Shown here in pieces: positions 5,608 to 18,328 of a stretch of DNA of 33,140 nucleotides. Position 1 is the stretch's first letter. Each line of letters starts with the position of its first letter. A program made the translations under genes and the position numbers. The notes beneath the pieces were generated by a model, which worked only from the letters and a program-made list of their open reading frames with translations, was not told where the DNA came from and did not search any database. The stretch lies in assembly GCA_015484575.1 (NCBI GenBank), contig WFND01000167.1, forward strand, positions 1-33,140, read 5' to 3'. Origin of the DNA: Helicobacteraceae bacterium. Its GTDB lineage: Bacteria; Campylobacterota; Campylobacteria; Campylobacterales; Sulfurimonadaceae.

Positions 5608-7494
5608 ATGGCACTAATCAAAAAAGGCGGCAGTTCAAATGCCGCAATGGTTTCAGGACATACAGGTGATAAACGACGACAACGTACACTGGCAAAACAG
5701 CAACAGATTTCAGAAAGTATTGCCGGTATCGCTACGACAATCTTAGATAATGCCCAAGAGAGCGTCAGTGCAATAGAGCAACTGAAATCTTCAATGGAAC
5801 AGATAGCAACAGCAGCTGAAGAGAACAGTGGAGCAAGTGAACAGGCTCTAAGAAATGTAAAAAGTATTACAAGCAATATCTCTCGAATGGGAAACAGCAT
5901 CGATACTGTTATATCATCAACTCTTACAAGCGGTGATAATATCATGAAGGCAGTAGATACTATCAATCTGTCTGTTAATCGTATGAATGACTCTGTAGGT
6001 GTTGCAAAACAGTCTTCAACAAAAAGTGAAGAGCTTAAAGCATCTTCTGAAAATATAGGTGAAGCAGTCGGCTTTATTGCAAAAATTGCCGATCAGACAA
6101 ATCTACTGGCATTAAATGCAGCCATAGAAGCTTCTCGTGCAAAAGAGCATGGAAAAGGCTTTGCCGTTGTTGCTGATGAGACACGTGCTTTGGCCGGTGA
6201 GAGTGAAAAAAATGCAGAATTTATATCAGACCTTGTAAATAAAATCCAAGCTAGTATAGATAATATTATCAAAAGTATTGTTGATACTACAGATATTATT
6301 GAGGCTACAGGACATCAAGGTACGGATTTAAGTAAAAAGATGGAAGAGCTAACTAAAATTGCCACCTTTACGGTTGAGGCGGCACGAAATATGAATAACT
6401 ATACTCAATCTTTATCCAATGCCATATCAAGAATCAATGATGGGAGTGCCGATATAGCAAAAGCTTCACAAGATATTGCTCACTCTGTTGAGAAAACTTT
6501 AGATGGAATTGAGATTCAATCCAATGCTCTTGCCCAGACAGAAGATGACATAAAAGAGTTAAGTAGTCTGGCAGAGGAGCTTAAATACTCTACCGATACT
6601 ATGAAATCTGCTGAAGAGATGGCATCATCAGCAGATACGATAAGTGGCTCTATGGAAGATATACAGAGCTCCTTAGAAGAGGTTAGCGATGCACTAAATC
6701 AGATAGAGTTAAGCTCAAATACAACAAATCAGAGTGTGCTATCAAATAAGGAGCTTGTTGAAGAGGGGCTCGAAGCTTCTAAAGATATTAATTCATTAAT
6801 AGAGATAGGTCGCCGTAACTTTGATCTTCTTAAAATATCTTTTACAGAAGTCAGAAATGAACTTAAAGCTATCGCTTTAGCTTTTGAAAATTCAATTACA
6901 GAGGGCAATACTGCAGGTGGAGAGCTTGAAGTTATCGTAAAAGAGACTCGTAACGTTGATAAAACCGTGGGAAATATCTCAAACTCTATTATTCAGTTAA
7001 ATATGTTGGCGATTAGCGGTTCTATAGAGGCTGCACGTGCAGGTGATTTTGGTAAAGGTTTTGCCGTAGTTAGTGCAGATATAAGAAATCTAGCAAAAGA
7101 TTCAGAAGAGAATACAGATAAGATAAATGACACCATAGAGTCGATGAATTCAGAGATAGATATGGTAAAAACGGATTGGCTAAAGCTTTTAGGCGGACAG
7201 AGTGATGAGCGTCAGCAGATTAATCGTTTGGTAAATGATGTTGAATTTATTACGACTATGATTATTGATTTACTAGATAGATTTTCCGGTTTAAAAGGTA
7301 TAAATGATCAAAATCTTGAAGGTATGAATCAAGTGCTTATAGGTGTCAGTGAAATACAAAAAGCCGTTGAACTTTCAGCTAGAAATGCGATGGAGTCTCG
7401 TAAAGCGAGTGAATTGATTATTGAAACGATTACTCATATTGGAGAAGGTGTGGAAGAGTTGGCTGTTATGGCTGACGAGTTGCAACAAGGTTAA
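5608..7494 (+). CDS. Soluble methyl-accepting chemotaxis protein with two signalling tips
   Basis: A 628-residue chemoreceptor that should relay signals to CheA/CheW. No transmembrane segment, HAMP or ligand domain is visible; nearly the whole chain is heptad-like coiled coil. There are two hairpin-tip sequences. The first (about 160-200) is canonical: ADQTNLLALNAAIEASRAKEHGKGFAVVADETRALA. The second (about 458-500) is divergent: IIQLNMLAISGSIEAARAGDFGKGFAVVSADIRNLA. They are about 300 residues apart, so the protein looks like two fused signalling modules rather than one long receptor. No CheR-binding pentapeptide is present at the C-terminus (ends ADELQQG). Input probably comes from the PAS protein encoded just upstream or from the CheW-CZB protein. 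The start is ATG behind AAGGAG. Confidence 0.93.
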   Translation: MALIKKGGSSNAAMVSGHTGDKRRQRTLAKQQQISESIAGIATTILDNAQESVSAIEQLKSSMEQIATAAEENSGASEQALRNVKSITSNISRMGNSIDTVISSTLTSGDNIMKAVDTINLSVNRMNDSVGVAKQSSTKSEELKASSENIGEAVGFIAKIADQTNLLALNAAIEASRAKEHGKGFAVVADETRALAGESEKNAEFISDLVNKIQASIDNIIKSIVDTTDIIEATGHQGTDLSKKMEELTKIATFTVEAARNMNNYTQSLSNAISRINDGSADIAKASQDIAHSVEKTLDGIEIQSNALAQTEDDIKELSSLAEELKYSTDTMKSAEEMASSADTISGSMEDIQSSLEEVSDALNQIELSSNTTNQSVLSNKELVEEGLEASKDINSLIEIGRRNFDLLKISFTEVRNELKAIALAFENSITEGNTAGGELEVIVKETRNVDKTVGNISNSIIQLNMLAISGSIEAARAGDFGKGFAVVSADIRNLAKDSEENTDKINDTIESMNSEIDMVKTDWLKLLGGQSDERQQINRLVNDVEFITTMIIDLLDRFSGLKGINDQNLEGMNQVLIGVSEIQKAVELSARNAMESRKASELIIETITHIGEGVEELAVMADELQQG

Positions 7495-7497
7495 ATA

Positions 7498-8877
7498 ATG
7501 AATATAGAAGAGATTCTGATTATAAAAAACGGTAACGTTTTTTATGGTATCAGCACTGAATATATTGATCAAATTTTACGTGTTCCTGCTATAACACCTG
7601 TTGTTTTAACTTCAGATTCTGTTTTAGGATTGAGTTCTGTGAGTGGAAAGATAGTTACTGTTTATGATACTAATATTATATTAGGATTACCCGCAGTTGA
7701 TTTGGAGTGTGAAGATACCAGAGTGCTTAGTTTGGTAGGTGCTTTACAAAATTCTGCTTTGGTAGTAAAAGAGGTAACGGATGCCGTACCGATAAATCAT
7801 GAGATGATTGAAGAGATTCAAGACAGAGGTGATGGTGTTATCGCTCTGTACAAATATAGAGACAGTATAGTTCAAATTTTAGATATTTCACAACTTTTAA
7901 ACAGGGTATCGTTAGATGAATTTAATGTAGAGAGTATAAAAGAGGCATCTTTGAAAAAAGAGAGTATCTCAAAAGAGAGTGCAGATATCAAGCGTTATCT
8001 TTTTATAAAAATGGCAGATGAGAAGTATGCGTTAAATATTCAAAACGTTAGAGAGATAATGAAACTGCCTTCTGAATTTACACCGATAAACGGTAGCGAT
8101 AGAGATATACTAGGTATGATGAATGTCAGAGGCGATCTGTTGGCAGTTATAGATTTACGACGTTTTTTCTCATTTGATGACACCATAAATGAAAAAAATA
8201 GAATTTTAGTTATCGAATTAGATAATAAAACAGTCGGTTTTGTGGTAGATGAAATCTTAGATATTCGTGATGTTGATGCTCATCTGATAGATATGATGCC
8301 TTCTAATTTTAGAGACAAAAAAATCTCTGGAGTTATACATGATGATGAACAGTTAATATCGTTGATTGGTGATGATGTTCTTAATACTTTGCTAGAATCA
8401 AGTTCAGCTCTAAACGGTGAGCAGAGTAAAAACAGCAGTGAAGATATAGAGAAACCTATAGAGCTAGAAGTTGTTATATTTACTTTTGGTGATGAGGAGT
8501 ATGCGATAGATATAGACAATGTGGTAGAAATTATTGATGCCGTAGAGACTACACCGTTTGCTGATGCTCCCAAGTTTGTGGATGGTCTTATAAATATTCG
8601 CGGACAGATAGTTATGATGATGTCTATATATCAGTGGCTATCCAAACCAAAACCTATAAGTGAAGATAAAAAGATAATTATATGTCAGTTGCAAGATTAT
8701 CGCGTAGGTTTTTATGTTGATAGCATTAGTGATGTTATAGGTATAGAAAAAAATGAGATAAAAGAGGAAGATAACAGTGATGAATACTTTACGGATATAC
8801 TTCATCTTGAAAACGGTTCACGGCTTGTACTTCTTTTTGATATAAACAAAATTACTCAATATAAGGACGTTGCATGA
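7498..8877 (+). CDS. Triple-domain CheW coupling protein
   Basis: Coupling protein linking receptor tips to CheA. The usual CheW is a single domain of about 150 residues; this one has 459 and shows three successive CheW-like domains, about 1-137, 165-300 and 320-455. Domains 2 and 3 keep the recognisable pattern: YALNIQNVREIMKLP ... GMMNVRGDLLAVIDLRRF ... GFVVDEI, and YAIDIDNVVEIIDAV ... GLINIRGQIVMMMSIYQW ... GFYVDSI. Domain 1 is more divergent (VFYGISTEYIDQILRVP). Acidic/Lys-rich linkers separate them. It starts 3 bases after the receptor gene and overlaps cheB by 4 bases (ATGA). One protein could bridge several receptor tips or CheA dimers, matching the two-tip receptor upstream. The architecture is seen directly; the bridging role is inferred. 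Confidence 0.9.
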   Translation: MNIEEILIIKNGNVFYGISTEYIDQILRVPAITPVVLTSDSVLGLSSVSGKIVTVYDTNIILGLPAVDLECEDTRVLSLVGALQNSALVVKEVTDAVPINHEMIEEIQDRGDGVIALYKYRDSIVQILDISQLLNRVSLDEFNVESIKEASLKKESISKESADIKRYLFIKMADEKYALNIQNVREIMKLPSEFTPINGSDRDILGMMNVRGDLLAVIDLRRFFSFDDTINEKNRILVIELDNKTVGFVVDEILDIRDVDAHLIDMMPSNFRDKKISGVIHDDEQLISLIGDDVLNTLLESSSALNGEQSKNSSEDIEKPIELEVVIFTFGDEEYAIDIDNVVEIIDAVETTPFADAPKFVDGLINIRGQIVMMMSIYQWLSKPKPISEDKKIIICQLQDYRVGFYVDSISDVIGIEKNEIKEEDNSDEYFTDILHLENGSRLVLLFDINKITQYKDVA

Positions 8878-9932
8878 GTAAAAAAATTTTAATTGTAGAT
8901 GATTCGGCACTGGTTCGTAAACAGTTACGAGAGATGATTGAGAGTCTAAATTTTGAGATTGATGTAGCCAAAAACGGTAAAGAGGCAGTTGAAAAGGCCT
9001 GTGCAGAAGATTTTAATGTTATTACGATGGATATTAATATGCCGGTTATGGATGGTTTGACGGCTGTTAAAGAGATAATGAGTGCCAATCCTACTCCTAT
9101 ACTGATGATAAGTTCATTAACATCAGATGATGCTACGACTACCATAGAGGCTATGGAGCTAGGTGCTATAGATTATATCGCTAAGCCCGGGACTATGAAT
9201 GTTGGAAAACGTGAAAACAGAGAAGAGATTTTAGAAAAGGTCGAGGCGATAAGTAAAATATCTAAAAGGCAGTTAAAACGTAAAAGAGCAAGACCTGCTT
9301 TAAGAGAGAGACCAAATCGTGTTCAAGAAAAAAGTGAGACTACTGCTGATAGCAGAGATATAAAAAAGGTACTTCTTATAGGCTCTTCGACAGGAGGTCC
9401 CGGATTGATTGAGCAGATATGTGCCTCTTTACCGGCTAGTTTCTCTTATCCTGTGTGTATAGTTCAACATATGCCCGAACAGTTTACTAAAGCTTTTGCT
9501 ACGCGTCTTGATAGAGTGAGTGCATTAACCGTGCATGAATCATCACACAATCAAGAGCTTCTGCCGGGAAATATTTATGTAGCTCGTGGCGGTGTTCATA
9601 TGCACTTTGCGAAAAAAGTTTCGGGAAAATATGTAATTCGTGAAGAGAAAGATATAAATGAGCAGTTTTTTCAACCTAGTGTTGATGAGATGTATTTTAG
9701 TGCTTTAAAAACTTTTGGCGGAGAGAAACTTATCGGTGTTATTTTGACAGGTATAGGCGATGATGGTGCCAAAGGTTTACTTGCTATAAAAAAGGCGGGT
9801 GGTTATACTATCGGTGAGAGTGAAGCTAGTGCAACCGTTTACGGAATGCCTAAAGTAGCTTATGACATCGGTGGAGTTATGGAACAGCTGGATTTTTCTA
9901 AAATAGTTAGAAAAATTGCAACATTTAAGTAG
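8874..9932 (+). CDS. cheB: CheB protein-glutamate methylesterase with receiver domain
   Basis: CheB removes methyl groups from receptor glutamates during adaptation and deamidates receptor glutamines. The N-terminal receiver (1-120) is complete: D9, D10, phospho-acceptor D53 in TMDINMPVMDG, and Lys in IAKPG. The C-terminal catalytic domain carries the triad Ser (near 170, GSSTGGP), His (near 199, VQHMPEQF) and Asp (near 295, GIGDDGAKG). The CheB proteins of Campylobacter jejuni, as I recall, lack the receiver, so this enzyme belongs to a separate chemosensory system. It overlaps the triple-CheW gene by 4 bases, and cheR follows two genes later. Confidence 0.97.
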   Translation: MSKKILIVDDSALVRKQLREMIESLNFEIDVAKNGKEAVEKACAEDFNVITMDINMPVMDGLTAVKEIMSANPTPILMISSLTSDDATTTIEAMELGAIDYIAKPGTMNVGKRENREEILEKVEAISKISKRQLKRKRARPALRERPNRVQEKSETTADSRDIKKVLLIGSSTGGPGLIEQICASLPASFSYPVCIVQHMPEQFTKAFATRLDRVSALTVHESSHNQELLPGNIYVARGGVHMHFAKKVSGKYVIREEKDINEQFFQPSVDEMYFSALKTFGGEKLIGVILTGIGDDGAKGLLAIKKAGGYTIGESEASATVYGMPKVAYDIGGVMEQLDFSKIVRKIATFK

Positions 9933-9943
9933 TTGGAGCAGAT

Positions 9944-10567
9944 ATGGCACTTATAAAAAAACATATTGATCAAGATATAGAGTCGCTGCGTGAGTTTGAT
10001 GATCTTGAAGAGGCTATTGAGTATTTTAAAAATTATGATGATTTTGAGCATAGAAAACATGCACTTGAAGCTATAGCAAAGTTTGAAGATGGGGGTGAGT
10101 TTTTAGTTGAGGTTCTTTCAGATATATCGACAGGAAAAGCTATCGATGCTAAAGCGGCTTCACTTCTCTCATCTATGGATCCTGAAGAAGCACCTATTGA
10201 GGCTGTAATGGAGCTTCTTAAACTGCACAACGCCTATATAAGAAATTTAGCAATCTCTGTTTTACAAGATTACGGTGAGGCTATTAAATACTATATAGTT
10301 AAATTTTTAATAGGTAATGACAGAGATTTACGCATCTTTGCTATCAATGTATTGGGTGATGTCAATTTTCCTGAATCACGAGATATGCTTGTTGAACTTT
10401 TAGAAGGAGAGTCTGATATTAATGTTGCTATGACAGCTGTAGATTATATGGCAGAAATCGGTCAAGAGGAAGATATAGCACTTCTTGAGTCTTTAAAAGA
10501 GCATTTTAATCATGACCCTTATGTAGAATTTGGCGTTGATAATGCCATTAGAATGATTAAAGGCTAG
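9944..10567 (+). CDS. HEAT-repeat protein of the chemosensory operon
   Basis: A 207-residue, probably cytoplasmic alpha-helical protein. After an N-terminal acidic region (1-60), helical pairs of HEAT type follow at about 85-118 (AVMELLKLHNAYIRNLAISVLQDYG), 120-150 (DRDLRIFAINVLGDV), 155-180 (INVAMTAVDYMAEIG) and 185-206. HEAT repeats make curved scaffolds for protein contacts. No catalytic motif is visible. Its place between cheB and cheR, 11 and 2 bases from its neighbours, points to a scaffold or adaptation role, but the function is unknown. It shares the first six residues, MALIKK, with the receptor of the same operon. Confidence 0.85.
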   Translation: MALIKKHIDQDIESLREFDDLEEAIEYFKNYDDFEHRKHALEAIAKFEDGGEFLVEVLSDISTGKAIDAKAASLLSSMDPEEAPIEAVMELLKLHNAYIRNLAISVLQDYGEAIKYYIVKFLIGNDRDLRIFAINVLGDVNFPESRDMLVELLEGESDINVAMTAVDYMAEIGQEEDIALLESLKEHFNHDPYVEFGVDNAIRMIKG

Positions 10568-10569
10568 GT

Positions 10570-11400
10570 ATGGCATACGCACTCTCAAAAGATAACTTTA
10601 CAAAAATGAGTGAGTTTATTTATAGAAAAAGCGGGATATATCTTGAAGAAGAGAAGCACTATGATAAACTTGCCAAATTTATCGATTCTCGTATTAATAC
10701 GTTAGGTTTAGATAATTTTAGAAGATATTTTTTTAAATTAAGGTTTGAAGATAAAGAGGGAGATGAGTTTCAAGAGCTTATGAATGCTATCACTGTTAAT
10801 GAGACATATTTCTTTAGAGAAGTAAATCAATTTGAGGTTTTAGCAAACCATATTCTGCCTAGTTTACATAAAGTAAAACCTAAAAATGAGCCTATACGTA
10901 TCTTATCTTCACCCTGTTCTACCGGCGAAGAGCCGTATTCTATTATATTACATATTTTACAAGAGGGAACAGTTGTAGAGGAACGTGACATAGAAGTCGT
11001 AGGTATTGATATAGATTCAACTGTTATTGAAAAAGCAAAAAAGTCACAATACACTTCACGCTCCGTCCATGCCATACCAAAGCCTATACTAAATAGATGG
11101 TTTAAGAAAAAAGGTATGGGTTATAGTTTGGTTGATGATTTAATCGGTGTGGTTGATTTTCAGGTTGTAAATGTTTTTGATAAGGCAGCAATGCGTAAAC
11201 TTGGTAAATTTGATGTGATATTTTCAAGAAATATGATGATATATTTTGATGATGCTTCACGTAAAGAGGTGGCAATGACTTTTTATGATCTGCTAAATCC
11301 GGGAGGGTATGTTCTTTTGGGACATGCTGAATATATGAGCCGTATCGTCTCCGTATTTAATGCAAAAAAGATAGATACGACTTTAGTATATCAAAAATAG
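10570..11400 (+). CDS. cheR: CheR chemotaxis protein methyltransferase
   Basis: CheR methylates receptor glutamates using S-adenosylmethionine. The 276 residues match the family. The N-terminal helical domain (1-75) is followed by NAITVNETYFFRE, then the SAM-binding loop RILSSPCSTGEEPYSI, the acidic GIDIDSTVIEKA, VDFQVVNVFD, and the motif DVIFSRNMMIYFDD. All hallmarks are intact, so it is probably active. No TPR extension is present. Together with CheB it gives this operon its own methylation-based adaptation. Confidence 0.97.
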   Translation: MAYALSKDNFTKMSEFIYRKSGIYLEEEKHYDKLAKFIDSRINTLGLDNFRRYFFKLRFEDKEGDEFQELMNAITVNETYFFREVNQFEVLANHILPSLHKVKPKNEPIRILSSPCSTGEEPYSIILHILQEGTVVEERDIEVVGIDIDSTVIEKAKKSQYTSRSVHAIPKPILNRWFKKKGMGYSLVDDLIGVVDFQVVNVFDKAAMRKLGKFDVIFSRNMMIYFDDASRKEVAMTFYDLLNPGGYVLLGHAEYMSRIVSVFNAKKIDTTLVYQK

Positions 11401-11412
11401 AGGAGAGATATT

Positions 11413-11790
11413 ATGCCGTTAGTTATTTTTATAGATGATAGTGAGACAGCTTTGGCTTCAACTCGTATGGTTACAAACAGTATGCCAATTGATGTTAAGC
11501 AGTACCTACAGGCACAAAAAGCACTGCAAGAGATTGAAAGCGGTGAGATTTCACCAGATCTGATAATTACAGACCTTAATATGCCTGAGATGAACGGATT
11601 TGAATTTTTATCTGCTCTTCGTCAAGTACCTAGTGCTAAACGTGTGCCTGTTTTAATGTTGACAACAGAGACAAAAGCTGAACTGAAACAGCAGGGTAAA
11701 GCTCTTGGGCTTACCGGTTGGATTGTTAAACCTTTTAAACCAGCACAGTTAAAACAGGCTATATCAAGAGTGCTTAGGTTACCGGCATAA
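11413..11790 (+). CDS. CheY-like single-domain response regulator (first)
   Basis: A 125-residue stand-alone receiver domain. The key residues are D8, D9, phospho-acceptor D54 (IITDLNMPEMNG), T84 and K106 (IVKPF). The aromatic switch position near 103 is Trp rather than the Tyr/Phe of typical CheY. It should accept phosphate from the operon's CheA. Whether it reaches the flagellar motor or acts elsewhere (phosphate sink, ParA, HEAT protein) cannot be told. RBS AGGAGAG. It sits directly before the CheZ-like gene. Confidence 0.92.
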   Translation: MPLVIFIDDSETALASTRMVTNSMPIDVKQYLQAQKALQEIESGEISPDLIITDLNMPEMNGFEFLSALRQVPSAKRVPVLMLTTETKAELKQQGKALGLTGWIVKPFKPAQLKQAISRVLRLPA

Positions 11791-11799
11791 GGGGATAAG

Positions 11800-12189
11800 A
11801 TGGTCTTTTTAGATTCTATTGAACAGCTTTTGGCACATATTAAAAATGTTGAAGAAGATACTATGAGTCTCTCTAAAGATTCTCTGTTGAAGTTATCTTC
11901 ATTTTTAGAGAGAAATTCTATTGAGATTGATGATGATGTGGCACAGGCACTACAGTATCAAGATATTATTTCGCAACAACTCAGTGCGAGTATAGAAGCT
12001 ATAGAAGCCATCCAAAAGAGTATCCATCAGTTTAAATTTGCTTATAAAGAAGATGAGTCTATCGCTTTGGAGAGTATGAGTTTATTGCAAAAAAAGTTGG
12101 GTAATATACTAGAACGTGCAAAAGACAATCGTAGAGCATTTTCTGGAAATATAGATCATAATAGTGATGATGAAATAGAGTTTTTTTAG
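11800..12189 (+). CDS. Small CheZ-like putative CheY-P phosphatase
   Basis: A 129-residue, wholly helical, acidic protein that most annotation would call hypothetical. Two features recall CheZ. The sequence ALQYQDIISQQLSASIEAI places Asp55 and Gln59 with the D-x3-Q spacing of the CheZ active site (QDLTGQ in E. coli, D143/Q147). The acidic, Phe-ending tail SDDEIEFF resembles the C-terminal CheY-binding peptide of CheZ (DDLLDSLGF). It is about 60% of E. coli CheZ length, so a short four-helix hairpin would be expected. It is flanked on both sides by CheY-like genes, each 9 bases away, which strengthens the idea. It is an inference from motif plus context, and remote CheZ forms are known in this phylum (HP0170). 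Confidence 0.65.
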   Translation: MVFLDSIEQLLAHIKNVEEDTMSLSKDSLLKLSSFLERNSIEIDDDVAQALQYQDIISQQLSASIEAIEAIQKSIHQFKFAYKEDESIALESMSLLQKKLGNILERAKDNRRAFSGNIDHNSDDEIEFF

Positions 12190-12198
12190 GAGCTTAAA

Positions 12199-12564
12199 AT
12201 GGCAGTAGTAATGGTTGTAGATGATTCAAAAACGGTACGGAGCTATCATGGCTCTATTCTTAAGGCTATGGGAATTGAGATTGTAGAGGCCGAAAACGGT
12301 ATGGAAGCACTAGAGCGTAGTCTTGGCAGTAAAATAGATCTGTATTTAGTTGATGTTAATATGCCTGTTATGGATGGATACTCTTTTGTATCAGAACTTC
12401 GTAAGCAACCATCTAACAAGCTTACGCCGGTTGTTATGGTAACGACTCAGGCTCAAGAGGTTGATAAGATAGAAGCTTACAAGGTTGGTGCAAATCTGTT
12501 TGAAACAAAACCGATTAAGCCGGATCAGCTTAACGCTTACATAAATATTTTAGTACAAAGTTAG
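12199..12564 (+). CDS. CheY-like single-domain response regulator (second)
   Basis: A 121-residue stand-alone receiver with D8, D9, phospho-acceptor D52 (LVDVNMPVMDG), T82 and K104 (ETKPI). The switch aromatic is Phe101. It differs clearly from the other receiver gene 400 bases upstream, so the two are not a recent duplication and probably have separate outputs. It lies 9 bases before cheA and is the most likely direct partner of the kinase. RBS AGGAG. Confidence 0.93.
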   Translation: MAVVMVVDDSKTVRSYHGSILKAMGIEIVEAENGMEALERSLGSKIDLYLVDVNMPVMDGYSFVSELRKQPSNKLTPVVMVTTQAQEVDKIEAYKVGANLFETKPIKPDQLNAYINILVQS

Positions 12565-12573
12565 GGAGAAAAT

Positions 12574-15273
12574 ATGGATCCTTTATTAGAACAATTTCTG
12601 GTTGAAGCACGTGAAAATCTAAGTTTTATAGACCAAAATATTGATGCAATAGGCGGCGATGATCCTGAGTTGTTAAATTCAGTATTTAGAGCCGCCCATA
12701 CACTAAAAGGCGGCTCTGGAATAGTTGGTTTTGAATCTATAAAAGATATTACACACCATGCTGAAGATCTTCTTGATATGTTGCGTAGCGGTAAGATAGA
12801 GTTTCAAGAGTCTATGTTGGAGGCACTGTATAACGCTTTTGATGAGGTTATGAATCTTGTTGAAGCAGCTGAAGAGAGCGAAGAGATAGTAGATGCCGAC
12901 CCTGAACGCATAGAGAGTATTGCAAAAGAGTTAAATGCACAGATGGGGAAAGATGTAGAGGTAAAAGAGGAGTGGAGTGTTCCTTTTGAGTCTATAGGCG
13001 ATATTAAAAATATTGTAAATATGCCTATGGATTTTTTAAAGAATTTCGATGAAAAATTGGATTTCAAACTAGATGAATATGGAGAAGATGATTGTAATAG
13101 AAAACATCTTTTTGCCGTCAGTTTTGATGTAGATGAGTCTTGCATGGTTTACGGTAATGATCCTGTATATACACTCTCGTTACTAGAAGATGCTGTTGTT
13201 GGAGTTCATATCTGTATGGCTGAACAAAATGCCAAATCTATACTTAGCGGAATGGATGATCCTGATGGACTGTTGATGCAGGTACAGTTAACGGCTTTTA
13301 TATATGGGGCATATCCCGATATCGAAGATGCTCTGTTTAATTTTTTAGATGAACTTCAATTTGCTGTTTTGGATATATCCACCCTGCTGTCTGTTGAGAT
13401 GGGTGAGCAAAATCATCAGCTAGACATCATAAAAGAGATCTCTTCTCAGGCCAAGCTCTCTCATGAATCGATAAACGAGGCTATAAAAAAGGCTCTTCCT
13501 TTAATTGGTGAAGATAGTATTCAGTTCTCACAACTGACTCGTTTATCTGAAGTTTTAAGTAATATTTCTGAAAATGATTTAGCAAAATTGGGCTCATTTT
13601 TCACATCAATGCAGAGCGGTAGCGTTTATGAGTTTGATGAAAATGGTGAAATTTTAGATTTTAACGATAAGGTTGTCGATGAGGATAAAGAGTCAAAAAC
13701 AGCCACATTAAAGATAGATGATATAAGCAAAGCAACTCTAAATGAGATATTAACCCAACAGTTTAAAGCACTTGAAAATTTTGACAATGATGAGACTCTG
13801 TTAAGAGTATTTAGTATTTTGGATAAGGTTGGACGTTTTTATCCAGATATGCCAGAACTTAACACTCGTGATGATATTATGCAGTGGATAACTCAAGAGT
13901 TAGGTTTAACAGCTGCCGATAACTCTACAGAAAAAGAGTCTGTCAAAGAGAAGGCAGTTAAACAAGAGCCGATTAAAGAGGATAAAGTTACACAGCAAGA
14001 GAGTGTACAAAAAGAGACTAAGCAGAAAAAAACTCCAAAAAAGGAGAAGACGGTTACAAGCAAAGCAGTTGTAGGTAAAACTGTTAAAATAGAGCAAGAG
14101 TCTATAGATAATCTGATGAATATAGTAGGTGAACTTCTTGTTGCAAAAAATTCACTTCCTTATCTAGCAGATAATGTTTCAAATATGAATTCAGAGACAA
14201 TTAAACGTGAAATAATGGAGAAATATACCTTTATAAATCGTTTATCAGAGCAGTTGCAGGATTTAATAATGTCGATGCGTATGTTACCTATATCGTATGT
14301 ATTTGATCGTTATCCAAAACTCGTACGTGAAATATCAAAAAATCTAGGAAAAAAAGTAAAATTAACCATGGATGGCGGTCAGACAAAACTAGATAAAAAT
14401 ATGATAGAGATGTTAGCCGATCCTATGATTCATATTATGAGAAATTCATTAGACCACGGTATAGAGACACCGGATATTCGCCTCGAAAAAGGTAAACCAG
14501 AAGAGGGCAATGTCACATTAGAAGCCTACTCGCAATCTGATAAAATCATTATAGAGATTGTAGATGACGGTGCCGGTATAAATATTGATCGTGTTATTGC
14601 TAAAGTATTAGAAAAAGAGTTGTTGAGTATTGAAGAGATAGATGCTATGAGTGATAATGAAAAAGCAGAACTTGTGATGTTGCCGGGACTGTCCACTGCT
14701 GAAGAGATTAGTGAATACAGCGGTCGTGGTGTAGGTATGGATGTTGTTAGAAAATCGATAGAGAGTTTCGGTGGAAGCATATCCATACAGACAAGACCAA
14801 ATCAAGGTACTACTATCAGACTATCTATACCTGTTTCATTAGCTGTTACGGAACTTTTACATGTAACAATGGATGGCGTACATTATGGTCTTCCTATGGA
14901 TAATGTATCTGAGATAGTGAAGATTAATCGTGAAGATATTGAGTATCTTCATAATGAACCTTTTGTCTATATTCGTGGTGAGGTTATTCCTCTGTTATTT
15001 ATCAAAACAATGCTAAATGAAGAGGTTTTAGAAGGTTTACCTCTTCCTATTGTTGTTTTAAATATAAAAGATAATTTGGTAGCCATAGTTGTTAATGAAC
15101 TCTTAGGACAGTTAGATGTAGTACAAAAACCTTTAGAAGGTGTTATGGAAAATCACCCTATATTTAGCGGAACTGCTCTTCTTGGTAATGGACAGATTAT
15201 TATGACTATTGATCCTCTAGGTATCTTGGGTATCTCTACTCAACTTAAGTCCGAGATACAGAAGGCGTGTTGA
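12574..15273 (+). CDS. cheA: CheA chemotaxis histidine kinase
   Basis: An 899-residue CheA, longer than the usual 650-700. Order: Hpt domain (1-105) with phospho-acceptor H42 in RAAHTLKGGSG; a large middle part (110-440) that includes a stretch near 170-240 resembling the P2-like domain of other CheA proteins (FAVSFDVDESCMVYGNDPVYTLSLL); a Lys/Glu-rich linker (450-505); dimerisation helices (505-575, ESIDNLMNIVGELLVAKNSL); the ATPase domain (590-755) with HIMRNSLDHGIE, DDGAGI and SGRGVGMDVV; and a C-terminal CheW domain (757-890). No receiver is fused. All catalytic motifs are intact. The final codons overlap the start of the CheW-CZB gene. It holds the operon's only copy of the TTACATGTAA palindrome, encoding Leu-His-Val in the CheW part. 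Confidence 0.97.
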   Translation: MDPLLEQFLVEARENLSFIDQNIDAIGGDDPELLNSVFRAAHTLKGGSGIVGFESIKDITHHAEDLLDMLRSGKIEFQESMLEALYNAFDEVMNLVEAAEESEEIVDADPERIESIAKELNAQMGKDVEVKEEWSVPFESIGDIKNIVNMPMDFLKNFDEKLDFKLDEYGEDDCNRKHLFAVSFDVDESCMVYGNDPVYTLSLLEDAVVGVHICMAEQNAKSILSGMDDPDGLLMQVQLTAFIYGAYPDIEDALFNFLDELQFAVLDISTLLSVEMGEQNHQLDIIKEISSQAKLSHESINEAIKKALPLIGEDSIQFSQLTRLSEVLSNISENDLAKLGSFFTSMQSGSVYEFDENGEILDFNDKVVDEDKESKTATLKIDDISKATLNEILTQQFKALENFDNDETLLRVFSILDKVGRFYPDMPELNTRDDIMQWITQELGLTAADNSTEKESVKEKAVKQEPIKEDKVTQQESVQKETKQKKTPKKEKTVTSKAVVGKTVKIEQESIDNLMNIVGELLVAKNSLPYLADNVSNMNSETIKREIMEKYTFINRLSEQLQDLIMSMRMLPISYVFDRYPKLVREISKNLGKKVKLTMDGGQTKLDKNMIEMLADPMIHIMRNSLDHGIETPDIRLEKGKPEEGNVTLEAYSQSDKIIIEIVDDGAGINIDRVIAKVLEKELLSIEEIDAMSDNEKAELVMLPGLSTAEEISEYSGRGVGMDVVRKSIESFGGSISIQTRPNQGTTIRLSIPVSLAVTELLHVTMDGVHYGLPMDNVSEIVKINREDIEYLHNEPFVYIRGEVIPLLFIKTMLNEEVLEGLPLPIVVLNIKDNLVAIVVNELLGQLDVVQKPLEGVMENHPIFSGTALLGNGQIIMTIDPLGILGISTQLKSEIQKAC
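14857..14866. repeat. TTACATGTAA palindrome, copy 3 (in cheA)
   Basis: Exact copy read as codons for Leu-His-Val in the CheW-like part of cheA. It is the only copy between 5035 and 19099. Confidence 0.9.
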
Positions 15274-16043
15274 TGAAGTCACTGCTTATCTTTAAAGTAA
15301 AAAAGAATTTTTATGCTATAAATCTGGACTTTATACAGCGTATAATACAGGTTCGTGCAGCTACTGAAATTCCAAATGCTCATGAATTTATAGATGGTAT
15401 GGTATCTTATGAAGGCAGAGTGATTAAGATAGTGAATTTTCGTAAAATGACAAATTTACCTACTTATGAAGATGATCTTATAGAGTTATTTGAGAGATTA
15501 AAACAGCAACATGCACTATGGGTTGATACGTTAAAAGAGAGTGTGCAAAAAGGTGTTAAATTCTCCTTGACAACAGATTCTCATTTATGTGATTTGGGAA
15601 AATGGCTAGATAGCTTCACCTCTTATGATGAGAATGTAAGTAAAATATTAAGAGAGCTAAATAGTTTTCACAAACAGCTACACAACTCGGCTGTAGATAT
15701 TATAAAAATAGCACAGAGAGATAGAGATAAGGCTCTTGCGGAGATAGATACCAATGTTATAAGTATCTATAAATCGACAATAAATCTACTAGATACTTTT
15801 ATAGATGAATTTGACTCTGTAGCAGATTCACTCCAAAAATTACTTCTGTATAGTAATGGAGATGAATTTGCTCTAAAAGTTGATGAGATAATAGATATTG
15901 CACATGTTGATAGAGATATAACTTTGCAAAATATAGATACAGAGCCTAGTCAATATCTTGAGCTTGAAGGTGTTGTAGAGCTAAATGATATTTTAATAAA
16001 TGTGATAAAAACAGTTAAACTTCCAATAAAAGAGGTAAAATAA
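15273..16043 (+). CDS. CheW domain split by a CZB zinc-binding domain
   Basis: A coupling protein with a chemoreceptor zinc-binding (CZB) domain inserted inside the CheW fold. Numbered from ATG 15273 (256 residues), the first CheW part is 1-65 (LLIFKVKKNFYAINLDFIQRII ... GMVSYEGRVIKIVNF), CZB is about 70-150, then come a helical hairpin and the last CheW strands (195-252). The zinc ligands fit the family pattern exactly: H80 (HALW), C106 (CDLGKW), H133 and H137 (HKQLH). CZB Cys reacts with hypochlorous acid and senses zinc in other proteins. The track's GTG start at 15267 is less likely: the ATG at 15273 sits 7 bases after GAAGG and forms a TGATG overlap with the cheA stop. Sensor function is inferred. 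Confidence 0.9.
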   Translation: MKSLLIFKVKKNFYAINLDFIQRIIQVRAATEIPNAHEFIDGMVSYEGRVIKIVNFRKMTNLPTYEDDLIELFERLKQQHALWVDTLKESVQKGVKFSLTTDSHLCDLGKWLDSFTSYDENVSKILRELNSFHKQLHNSAVDIIKIAQRDRDKALAEIDTNVISIYKSTINLLDTFIDEFDSVADSLQKLLLYSNGDEFALKVDEIIDIAHVDRDITLQNIDTEPSQYLELEGVVELNDILINVIKTVKLPIKEVK

Positions 16044-16312
16044 TGGCAATAGATATACAAGATAACAGAGTTGTATTTTCATCTGTGATATATGAAGATG
16101 AGGTATCAACGATGCGAGACTTTTTTCAACAAAGAGCACCTGAGAAGATAAGTATAGATTTTTCCCAATGTGATGATGTTCATTTGGCTGTGTTACAGAC
16201 AATTATGGCATATAAAAAGCTTTATGATTGTGAATATCACTTTGCCAAAGAGAGAAAAATATTCCAAAGAGTGTTAGAAGGATTTGATAAGAGTGAAAAC
16301 CATTGTAATTAG
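16043..16312 (+). CDS. Short STAS-domain protein, phospho-site lost
   Basis: An 89-residue protein resembling the STAS domains found in chemosensory operons. The core ISIDFSQCDDVHLAVLQTIMAYKK lines up with the usual DLS..E.IDTAGLQLLLALKR. The conserved Asp-Ser/Thr pair is replaced by His47-Leu48, so phosphorylation of the type seen in anti-sigma antagonists is unlikely. It may act as a fixed protein-binding module. It starts on the last base of the preceding stop (TAATG) and overlaps parA by 20 bases. STAS family membership is moderate, given the shortness. Confidence 0.65.
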   Translation: MAIDIQDNRVVFSSVIYEDEVSTMRDFFQQRAPEKISIDFSQCDDVHLAVLQTIMAYKKLYDCEYHFAKERKIFQRVLEGFDKSENHCN

Positions 16313-17036
16313 CAATAGAAAAGGTGGCTCTGCTAAAACAACTACAGCGGTAAATCTTGCATCTCAACTGGCTAAAAATGCTTCTGTTCTTCTGTTAGAT
16401 TTTGATACACAAGGTCACGCTAGTATAGGAGTTGGTTCAAAGCCCTCCGAATCTTTGGGAGTTCACTCTATTTTTTTGGGTTCAACTCTTAGTGAAACGT
16501 TTATACCTACTATTCATGACAGACTGACTCTCTCTCCTGCTTTGGAGTTTTTTGATGTTTATGAGTATGCGGATTTAAGAGGCGTCTTAAAGAGCCGTTT
16601 TAAGCATGAAAGAATTGCAGAATTTTTTGACTACTGTATTATAGATACGCCTCCGACTTTTGATGCTCTGCTTAAAAACTCTCTTGAGGTTGCCGATAGA
16701 GTCGTCATCCCTTTTGTACCACATCATTTAGGTGTTGTTGCTGTTGGACAGATGGTTAGAGCCGTATATCAAAGTGCAACGATGTTGGGACGTGACGCTG
16801 CTGAAGTTGACATCTTACCCGTAATGTTTAATCCCCATATTTTAGAGCATAAAGCAGCACTTGAAAAGGTTAAAACATCTTTTGGCAAAGATAAGCTTTT
16901 CTCACCTATCGGTGTAGATATAAAATTGGCTTCACAATTTGAATCGGGTGACCCTTTAGTTTTAAACAAGCGTCGCTCTAAAGGATTAAAAGATTATAAA
17001 AATTTCACAAATGAGCTTTTGGAGCGTCTAAAATGA
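16293..17036 (+). CDS. ParA-family partitioning ATPase
   Basis: A MinD/ParA-type ATPase of about 247 residues. The deviant Walker A motif is intact (NRKGGSAKTTTAVNLA), with VLLLDFDTQGHAS as the next switch and CIIDTPPTFDALLKNSLEVADRVVIPFVPHH as Walker B and beyond. The track start TTG 16284 lies on top of the ribosome binding site AGAAGGA. GTG 16293, ten bases after it, fits better and begins directly before the core strand VKTIVISN. No ParB or parS is nearby, so plasmid partitioning is unlikely. ParA homologues PpfA (Rhodobacter) and ParC (Vibrio) position chemoreceptor arrays, and that role is the best guess here. The gene overlaps its STAS neighbour by 20 bases and the receiver gene by 4. 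Confidence 0.92.
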   Translation: MKTIVISNRKGGSAKTTTAVNLASQLAKNASVLLLDFDTQGHASIGVGSKPSESLGVHSIFLGSTLSETFIPTIHDRLTLSPALEFFDVYEYADLRGVLKSRFKHERIAEFFDYCIIDTPPTFDALLKNSLEVADRVVIPFVPHHLGVVAVGQMVRAVYQSATMLGRDAAEVDILPVMFNPHILEHKAALEKVKTSFGKDKLFSPIGVDIKLASQFESGDPLVLNKRRSKGLKDYKNFTNELLERLK

Positions 17037-18328
17037 ATAAGATACTAATCGTTGATGATAATAAAAATAATCGTATGATTTTACATCTTTTACTAGATGA
17101 TTATCTCGATAAACACAAAGAGTTTTTATATCATATCGATGAGGCTGAAAATGGAGAGTCGGCACTAGAGATGGTCAAAAATGTATCTTATGATATAGTG
17201 CTTATGGATATTATGATGCCAAAAATGGATGGTATTGAAGCTACTAAACTTATCAAAAAGATAAATAAAAACATTATGATTATTGCCATTTCAGCTATGG
17301 ATGATATAGACAGACAGAGAGAGATTTTAAATGCCGGTGCAGAAGATTATCTATCAAAACCGATAAATGCAGATATTTTTACTACACGTATAGGACACTA
17401 TTTCTCTCTTATAGAGTCAAGAAATCATAAAAAATTTAATTTAGAGGCCATAAATAACTATACAAAAGAGATATTTAGCAGACGTCTTGTCTTTATGATA
17501 GCATCGGATGATGATCTGTCTGAATTTTGGGAATATTATCTCTTGGGTGATAATGAACGTTATGAATATCTTAGTGATACGGTAAGGGTTATTTATGCTC
17601 TTTGTGACCTCTTGTTGAAGCTTGATGAGCATTGTGAAGTCATTGTTGAAGAGTCTGAAAATGAGAGGTATTACACCATCACTAACATAGACAAGCTCGA
17701 TGATGAACTTATCATGTTGGTAATGATGAAAAACAGATTGGTAGATAACTATAAGATAAAAAATGCTCGTATCAGTTTTATGCTTTGCATAACATCTGAA
17801 CAAAACATTACGCAAAAATCTGAAGTTGATGTTACTAGTGTGAATAAAGAGAGTGCAACACAAGAGGTTGAAGTAGTAAAAAACAGTGTATATGATTATA
17901 TAGATGAAGATGATTTAGAAGAGTTGGAGATATATATTTCAAAACTTAACTCACTACTGCTAATAATAGGCAGCGGCAATGTAGAAGATGATGAAATTGT
18001 TGAGATATATACATATCTTGAGTTAATTGCAAAAATTTTAATTACATATAGTGAGTCAAAAACAGTTGGGGATACACTTTTAGAGCTTTCAGATGTTATA
18101 GCGAAAAATATAGATGTATTTCGTAAAAATTCAGCTGCTTTAGCACCTATGGCAAAAGCTTTTAGCAGTGATTTACAGACATGGAACAGAACCATTTTTC
18201 ATGATGGTGCTCCTAGTGTTGACTATCTTGATGATACAATATGTGCAAATTCTAAAACCATCTCTTTGATGTTGAGTCCACAAGAAGAGAGTGCCGAGGA
18301 AGAGTTAGATGATATTTTTGATTTTTAG
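17033..18328 (+). CDS. Response regulator with uncharacterised C-terminal region
   Basis: A 431-residue protein. The N-terminal receiver (1-130) is complete: D8, D9, phospho-acceptor D59 (LMDIMMPKMDG), S87 and K109 (LSKPI). Residues 130-260 are acidic and mixed alpha/beta with no family I recognise (FWEYYLLGDNERYEYLSDTVRV). A linker (265-295) leads to a helical part (295-415) that ends in the acidic, Phe-rich tail EEELDDIFDF. No DNA-binding, GGDEF, EAL, HD-GYP or kinase motif is visible. The tail looks like that of the CheZ-like protein in the same operon. It overlaps parA by 4 bases (ATGA), so it may couple phosphorylation to array positioning. This is inference only. Confidence 0.88.
   Translation: MNKILIVDDNKNNRMILHLLLDDYLDKHKEFLYHIDEAENGESALEMVKNVSYDIVLMDIMMPKMDGIEATKLIKKINKNIMIIAISAMDDIDRQREILNAGAEDYLSKPINADIFTTRIGHYFSLIESRNHKKFNLEAINNYTKEIFSRRLVFMIASDDDLSEFWEYYLLGDNERYEYLSDTVRVIYALCDLLLKLDEHCEVIVEESENERYYTITNIDKLDDELIMLVMMKNRLVDNYKIKNARISFMLCITSEQNITQKSEVDVTSVNKESATQEVEVVKNSVYDYIDEDDLEELEIYISKLNSLLLIIGSGNVEDDEIVEIYTYLELIAKILITYSESKTVGDTLLELSDVIAKNIDVFRKNSAALAPMAKAFSSDLQTWNRTIFHDGAPSVDYLDDTICANSKTISLMLSPQEESAEEELDDIFDF

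Follow-up and report, generated by a model that had tools for sequence, protein, structure and literature searches.

A stand-alone CheZ-like module, a candidate phosphatase, in an F9-class chemosensory operon of Campylobacterota

The small gene between two receiver genes

The question raised by this locus is whether a short gene enclosed by two receiver genes in a chemotaxis operon encodes a CheZ-type phosphatase. The window, i.e., the whole stretch of DNA analysed (33,140 nucleotides), comes from a Sulfurimonadaceae-type genome, and the gene, called mini-CheZ here, is present as a single copy in the 2.07 Mb draft. Read directly from the sequence, the open reading frame starts with ATG and encodes 129 residues on the forward strand. 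The upstream receiver-only gene ends 9 bp before it, the downstream one begins 9 bp after it, and both match Pfam Response_reg, so that the position between two CheY-like genes given by the first-pass annotation was correct. The same annotation had described a helical protein with D55-x3-Q59 in QDIISQ and an acidic tail ending in Phe. The motif is exact, its context being QYQ-D55-IIS-Q59-Q within ALQYQDIISQQ, and the C-terminus reads SDDEIEFF. AlphaFold2, run with a 23-row alignment, predicted helices at residues 2-38, 45-84 and 87-115 (mean pLDDT 84, pTM 0.73), which agrees with the helical description, and a disordered tail at residues 119-129. The first two helices form the hairpin that had been proposed as a check, and the motif (residues 54-59) is located on the second of them; this hairpin is generic rather than CheZ-specific. 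The fold search of the PDB with the model gave no significant match, generic helical bundles being on top. The features of the locus are as follows.

5608-7494, forward: DosM-type chemoreceptor, two MCP signalling domains (two MCPsignal stretches), no sensor domain found
7498-8877, forward: CheW3 adaptor, three CheW domains (three CheW stretches), F9 marker
8874-9932, forward: CheB methylesterase (CheB_methylest and Response_reg)
9944-10567, forward: HEAT-repeat protein, constant in F9 clusters (HEAT_2, E 5.5e-17)
10570-11400, forward: CheR methyltransferase (matches the annotated CheR in L074 and L075)
11413-11790, forward: CheY1, receiver-only response regulator, candidate substrate (Response_reg, E 2.4e-22), upstream of mini-CheZ in all F9 loci examined
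11800-12189, forward: mini-CheZ, stand-alone CheZ-like module of 129 residues (ORF, 35 homologues, helical model)
11947-11976, forward: CheZ signature AXX[FY]Q plus DXXXQ, residues 50-59, ALQYQ-D55-IIS-Q59, proposed catalytic site (motif match)
12166-12186, forward: acidic/aromatic C-terminal tail, residues 123-129, DDEIEFF (conservation; -IELF in receptor-fused modules)
12199-12564, forward: CheY2, receiver-only response regulator, candidate substrate (Response_reg, E 3.9e-27)
12574-15273, forward: CheA kinase of the F9 cluster (Hpt, H-kinase_dim, HATPase_c and CheW domains)
15267-16043, forward: protein with CheW and chemoreceptor zinc-binding (CZB) domains (domain match)
16284-17036, forward: ParA/MipZ-like ATPase (AAA_31, E 1.3e-26)
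17033-18328, forward: receiver protein with C-terminal extension (Response_reg, E 1.3e-26), tail EEELDDIFDF, in style resembling the mini-CheZ tail

The F9 class comprises cytoplasmic double-layer arrays, with DosM and CheW3 as markers (PMC9321776). Both markers are present here as Pfam stretches, i.e., the double-signalling-domain DosM receptor, otherwise without Pfam domain, and the triple-CheW adaptor, and on this gene content the operon is an F9-class cytoplasmic-array chemosensory operon. The gene order common to the F9 loci of the relatives, as far as each extends, is DosM, CheW3, CheB, HEAT protein, CheR, CheY1, mini-CheZ, CheY2, CheA, CheW-CZB and ParA, and mini-CheZ lies between CheY1 and CheY2 in all F9 loci examined.

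Two side observations concern the neighbouring genes. The receiver proteins with a C-terminal extension (17033-18328 and those of L087-L092) end in DDIFDF or DDLxFF. A conserved hypothetical protein of 78-87 residues (HLHAAxLQVLLALRP) directly follows CheA in proteobacterial F9 clusters (L074:16142-16378, L075:16114-16350, L100:12131-12394, L101:18723-18962 and L102:16370-16612); no counterpart was identified in the window, where the CheW-CZB protein follows CheA.

Relation to CheZ and conservation of the motif

CheZ proteins share a signature in which AXXF(Y)Q adjoins DXXXQ, the epsilonproteobacterial form having Tyr (PMC7750401), and in CheZ of H. pylori D189 and Q193 are required for dephosphorylation while the N-terminal region is dispensable (PMC11237671). 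Mini-CheZ carries exactly this published signature with the epsilon-type Tyr, and it is the sole match to AXX[FY]QD[LIVMF]XXQ in its own genome. Searched as a DNA pattern, QYQD[IV]xxQ matches the 2.07 Mb genome at exactly two places, mini-CheZ and the flagellar (F3) CheZ, and gives 63 matches in 61 genomes, as compared to two for the reversed-pattern control. One candidate was discarded: ATNYQDIISQ (AXXYQDIISQ) in genome G433 is a chance match, the protein being a membrane permease.

Of the checks named in the first-pass annotation, the profile search came out negative: the curated CheZ profiles give no match to mini-CheZ. Single-protein searches of Pfam, NCBIfam and PDB sequences returned noise only, the PDB profile search returned PI3K coiled coils and other noise, and Pfam CheZ (PF04344) and NCBIfam Phos_CheZ (NF041271) were absent from the reported matches of 23 family members. 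PF04344 is a weak yardstick here because its cut-off is passed in only one of 200 Campylobacterota genomes, most Campylobacterota CheZs falling below it; NF041271 detects the flagellar CheZ of the host genome with E 6e-66. When the profile of the mini-CheZ family was run against 1,689 ORFs, 18 of the 19 best non-self matches were CheZs and the other was a short CheZ-like ORF, and in the search of the phylum eight of ten marginal matches were CheZ-type ORFs with the motif. The hhalign comparison of the family with 33 Campylobacterota CheZs scored 28.7, whereas none of 42 windows taken from other families of the same (chemotaxis) operons exceeded 9.1. The first control, made by column shuffling, gave pathological scores of 128-132 in two of 150 cases and was replaced by these 42 real-family windows and by receptor-module shuffles, both of which were clean. 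No similarity was detected between the profiles of mini-CheZ and the E. coli-type CheZ. The CheZ link was lost once the motif was masked, no CheZ similarity being detectable outside the motif helix, and therefore the catalytic helix is the only part that sequence alone connects with CheZ.

The first homologue search was partly seeded with the motif and therefore cannot prove the invariance of D55 and Q59. Divergent members, down to 31% identity, came from a profile search that covered 397 Campylobacterota genomes, and in the combined set both residues are invariant in 35 of 35 distinct homologues. The residues that never vary in the 35 sequences include Q52, D55, Q59, Q60, H13, V17, A107, F114, G116 and F129. 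In the divergent members Q54 is changed to N, H or Y and Y53 to L or H, and S58 also varies; the AXX[FY]Q element, present in mini-CheZ as ALQYQ, drifts at A, Y and Q in some relatives. As judged from these alignments, selection holds D and Q four residues apart in this family. The tail is conserved at I126 (33/35), F128 (34/35) and F129 (35/35). The single-sequence search of plasmids found no mini-CheZ relative.

The divergent members L032-L037 sit in a second type of chemosensory cluster, composed of CheA, a receptor, CheW, a receiver-containing coupling protein, CheR, CheB, a receiver-like protein and mini-CheZ, often with a PAS protein and a further receptor. The coupling protein is presumably CheV, and some of these clusters appear to contain CheD and a ParA-like ATPase as well. 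No intact plain CheY adjoins the mini-CheZ gene in this cluster type. By eye, the receiver domain of the receiver-like protein upstream of mini-CheZ (L087-L092) looks degenerate in several cases, the acidic pair or the lysine being missing. Member L038 has no chemotaxis neighbour, and a divergent copy in L093 (G249:C210; LQHQDILTQQ, ending in ELF) is isolated from chemotaxis genes.

CheZ-like modules fused to receptors

In the plasmid F9 clusters of Sphaerotilus, Methylosinus, Methylobacterium and Eleftheria, CheR, one receiver gene and CheA are consecutive, without an intervening mini-CheZ. Each of these four alpha- and betaproteobacterial clusters has a second, short chemoreceptor-like protein, which adjoins a plain receiver gene in three of them (Sphaerotilus, Methylobacterium and Eleftheria) and a response-regulator transcription factor in Methylosinus. 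All four short receptors terminate in IELF, with Q[FY]QD[IV]xxQ some 75-100 residues before it, and the residues invariant across the four modules include exactly Q-x-Q-D-x3-Q and I-E-L-F. The four proteins, listed below, are annotated only as methyl-accepting chemotaxis protein.

L074:16882-18156, receptor-fused module
L075:4870-5901, receptor-fused module
L100:13798-15081, receptor-fused module
L102:16782-17729, receptor-fused module

The receptor-fused module aligned with the mini-CheZ family over 126 columns, including the motif and the tail (score 39.8, P 2e-7; none of 150 shuffles above 9.4), and with Campylobacterota CheZ at a score of 38.9 (P 2.8e-7); with the smaller A1 alignment the P value was weaker (1.7e-4 over 48 columns). 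The best null against the module was the C-terminal window of the receiver family of the 17033-18328 type (17.0, P 0.003), which is without DxxxQ. The profile made from the four proteins has matches in 173 of the 200 Campylobacterota genomes searched, and among the matches listed almost all are ORFs of CheZ length, with E values down to 3e-11. In the host genome it finds CheZ first (7.8e-9) and the mini-CheZ ORF second (0.005), followed by noise (2.8). NF041271 reports three of the four receptor-fused proteins weakly over the module region (2.5e-5, 0.016 and 0.035). These comparisons support the view that the modules form an independent bridge from mini-CheZ to CheZ. An Azospirillum F9 cluster, also without mini-CheZ, has two genes annotated as CheC in its place, CheC being a known CheY~P phosphatase family.

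We consider it reasonably plausible that accessory arrays are served by an unrecognised CheZ-like class, marked by QxQDxxxQ and by IE[LF]F at the C-terminus, which is stand-alone in Campylobacterota and fused to receptors in the F9 clusters of other proteobacteria, and that some receptors would thus carry their own CheY~P phosphatase.

Proposed function and comparison with known systems

Motif invariance, rarity, profile-profile links above matched nulls, the operon and the receptor-fused bridge together support the CheZ-like reading of the first-pass annotation, at the level of sequence, and its label 'minimal' is apt. Mini-CheZ is quite likely a stand-alone CheZ-type phosphatase module dedicated to the cytoplasmic F9-class array, with CheY1 and/or CheY2 as substrates. 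Both receivers, as read from their sequences, retain the acidic pair, the phosphorylated Asp, the Thr and the Lys and are therefore plausible substrates. Catalysis, dimerisation, substrate identity and the role of the tail are inferred. By analogy with CheZ, D55 and Q59 would be displayed on the second helix of the H1/H2 hairpin; the role of Q59 would be to align the water molecule that attacks in the active site of the phosphorylated receiver, and D55 would engage the conserved receiver lysine. The neighbouring CheA presumably phosphorylates both CheY1 and CheY2, either or both of which would be the substrate, and the flexible -DDEIEFF tail might tether the receiver or keep mini-CheZ in the array. 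The prediction of CheY1, mini-CheZ and CheY2 fused by read-through of the stop codons, made with a thin alignment and short linkers, gave a pTM of 0.37, no confident docking and an unordered tail.

The tail is conserved and acidic/aromatic, and its sequence differs from the CheY-binding peptide of CheZ; it is closer to the -IELF end of the receptor-fused modules than to the E. coli CheZ tail. There is also a resemblance to the C-terminal end of Campylobacterota CheZ, which contains DIE, and the tail may serve to hold a receiver or the array. The CheR-binding pentapeptide needs an aromatic residue at position 2 (PMC7390727), and the tail was rejected as such a pentapeptide (aromatics at positions 2 and 5), EIEFF and KIELF being without the position-2 aromatic.

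It is improbable, in our view, that mini-CheZ is a CheZ-derived receiver-binding or array-scaffold factor that attaches to CheY or the array through its helix and IEFF tail and is not a phosphatase. Acidic/aromatic tails of a similar kind are present on receiver proteins of the same clusters that lack DxxxQ, and elsewhere the module is found as a fusion with receptor signalling domains, both of which are compatible with array localisation; a pure binder, however, needs no invariant D and Q four residues apart while the flanks drift. A CheZ-type phosphatase whose target is another receiver, e.g., CheB or one of the larger receiver proteins that the cluster encodes, would fit the second cluster type with its order CheB, receiver-like protein and mini-CheZ and no adjacent plain CheY, but we regard it as quite unlikely, considering that mini-CheZ is found between CheY1 and CheY2 in every F9 locus examined and that the receptor-fused modules of Sphaerotilus, Methylobacterium and Eleftheria adjoin plain receiver genes. 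Short helical proteins weakly match many models, and the membrane permease mentioned above shows that ATNYQDIISQ can arise by chance; even so, an unrelated small helical chemotaxis protein with a fortuitous DxxxQ is very hard to reconcile with the invariance, the genome-wide rarity, the operon fixity and the receptor-fused bridge. The CheZ-type phosphatase acting on CheY1 and/or CheY2 is thus the reading we prefer.

No description of mini-CheZ or of receptor-fused CheZ-like modules was found in the part of the literature covered, and a review of V. cholerae lists no phosphatase for cluster I, its F9-type cytoplasmic system (PMC11940527). Mini-CheZ would represent a CheZ lineage reduced to a minimum and linked to accessory arrays, its activity being deduced, and together with the receptor-fused modules it suggests a reset mechanism for a chemosensory system that is poorly understood. 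If this is true, the occurrence of the module as a separate protein or a receptor domain, or its apparent replacement by CheC, would indicate that signals in F9 arrays have to be terminated fast, and the CheZ-like module would be the F9 termination enzyme. It would also offer mechanistic studies a minimal phosphatase with about 115 ordered residues and account for unannotated genes in che operons of Campylobacterota.

As compared to the known systems, mini-CheZ is like the Campylobacterota F3 CheZ (H. pylori type; NF041271) in its QYQDIxxQ catalytic helix, with the Tyr variant of AXX[FY]Q and the DXXXQ pair, and in an acidic C-terminal peptide containing DIE. Unlike F3 CheZ, it is half as long, without the long N-terminal region, ends in EFF instead of EALIASLG and is encoded inside the F9 operon, a full CheZ being present in the same genome. 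With the CheZ of Enterobacteriaceae (PF04344, E. coli) it shares AXXFQ-DXXXQ (D143/Q147 in E. coli) and the arrangement of hairpin, flexible linker and Phe-ending C-terminal peptide, but the E. coli hairpin (residues 35-168) is far longer (PMC7750401). The E. coli tail, VDDLLDSLGF, is also unlike that of mini-CheZ, and no similarity was detected at the profile level. CheC, CheX and FliY, which remove phosphate from CheY as proposed for mini-CheZ, have a different fold and an ExxN motif, and no sequence relation to them was found. Short CheZ-like ORFs of 119-141 residues with a CheZ-type tail (L116-L120) occur in another family of the same order, and those of L116-L119, whose genomes encode a longer CheZ as well, lie next to a receptor gene; because of this occurrence, shortened CheZs probably arose more than once. 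The receptor-fused modules (L074, L075, L100 and L102) resemble mini-CheZ in QxQDxxxQ, the -IE[LF]F C-terminus, the F9 clusters and the location mostly beside receiver genes, but they are attached to an MCP signalling domain, whereas mini-CheZ stands alone.
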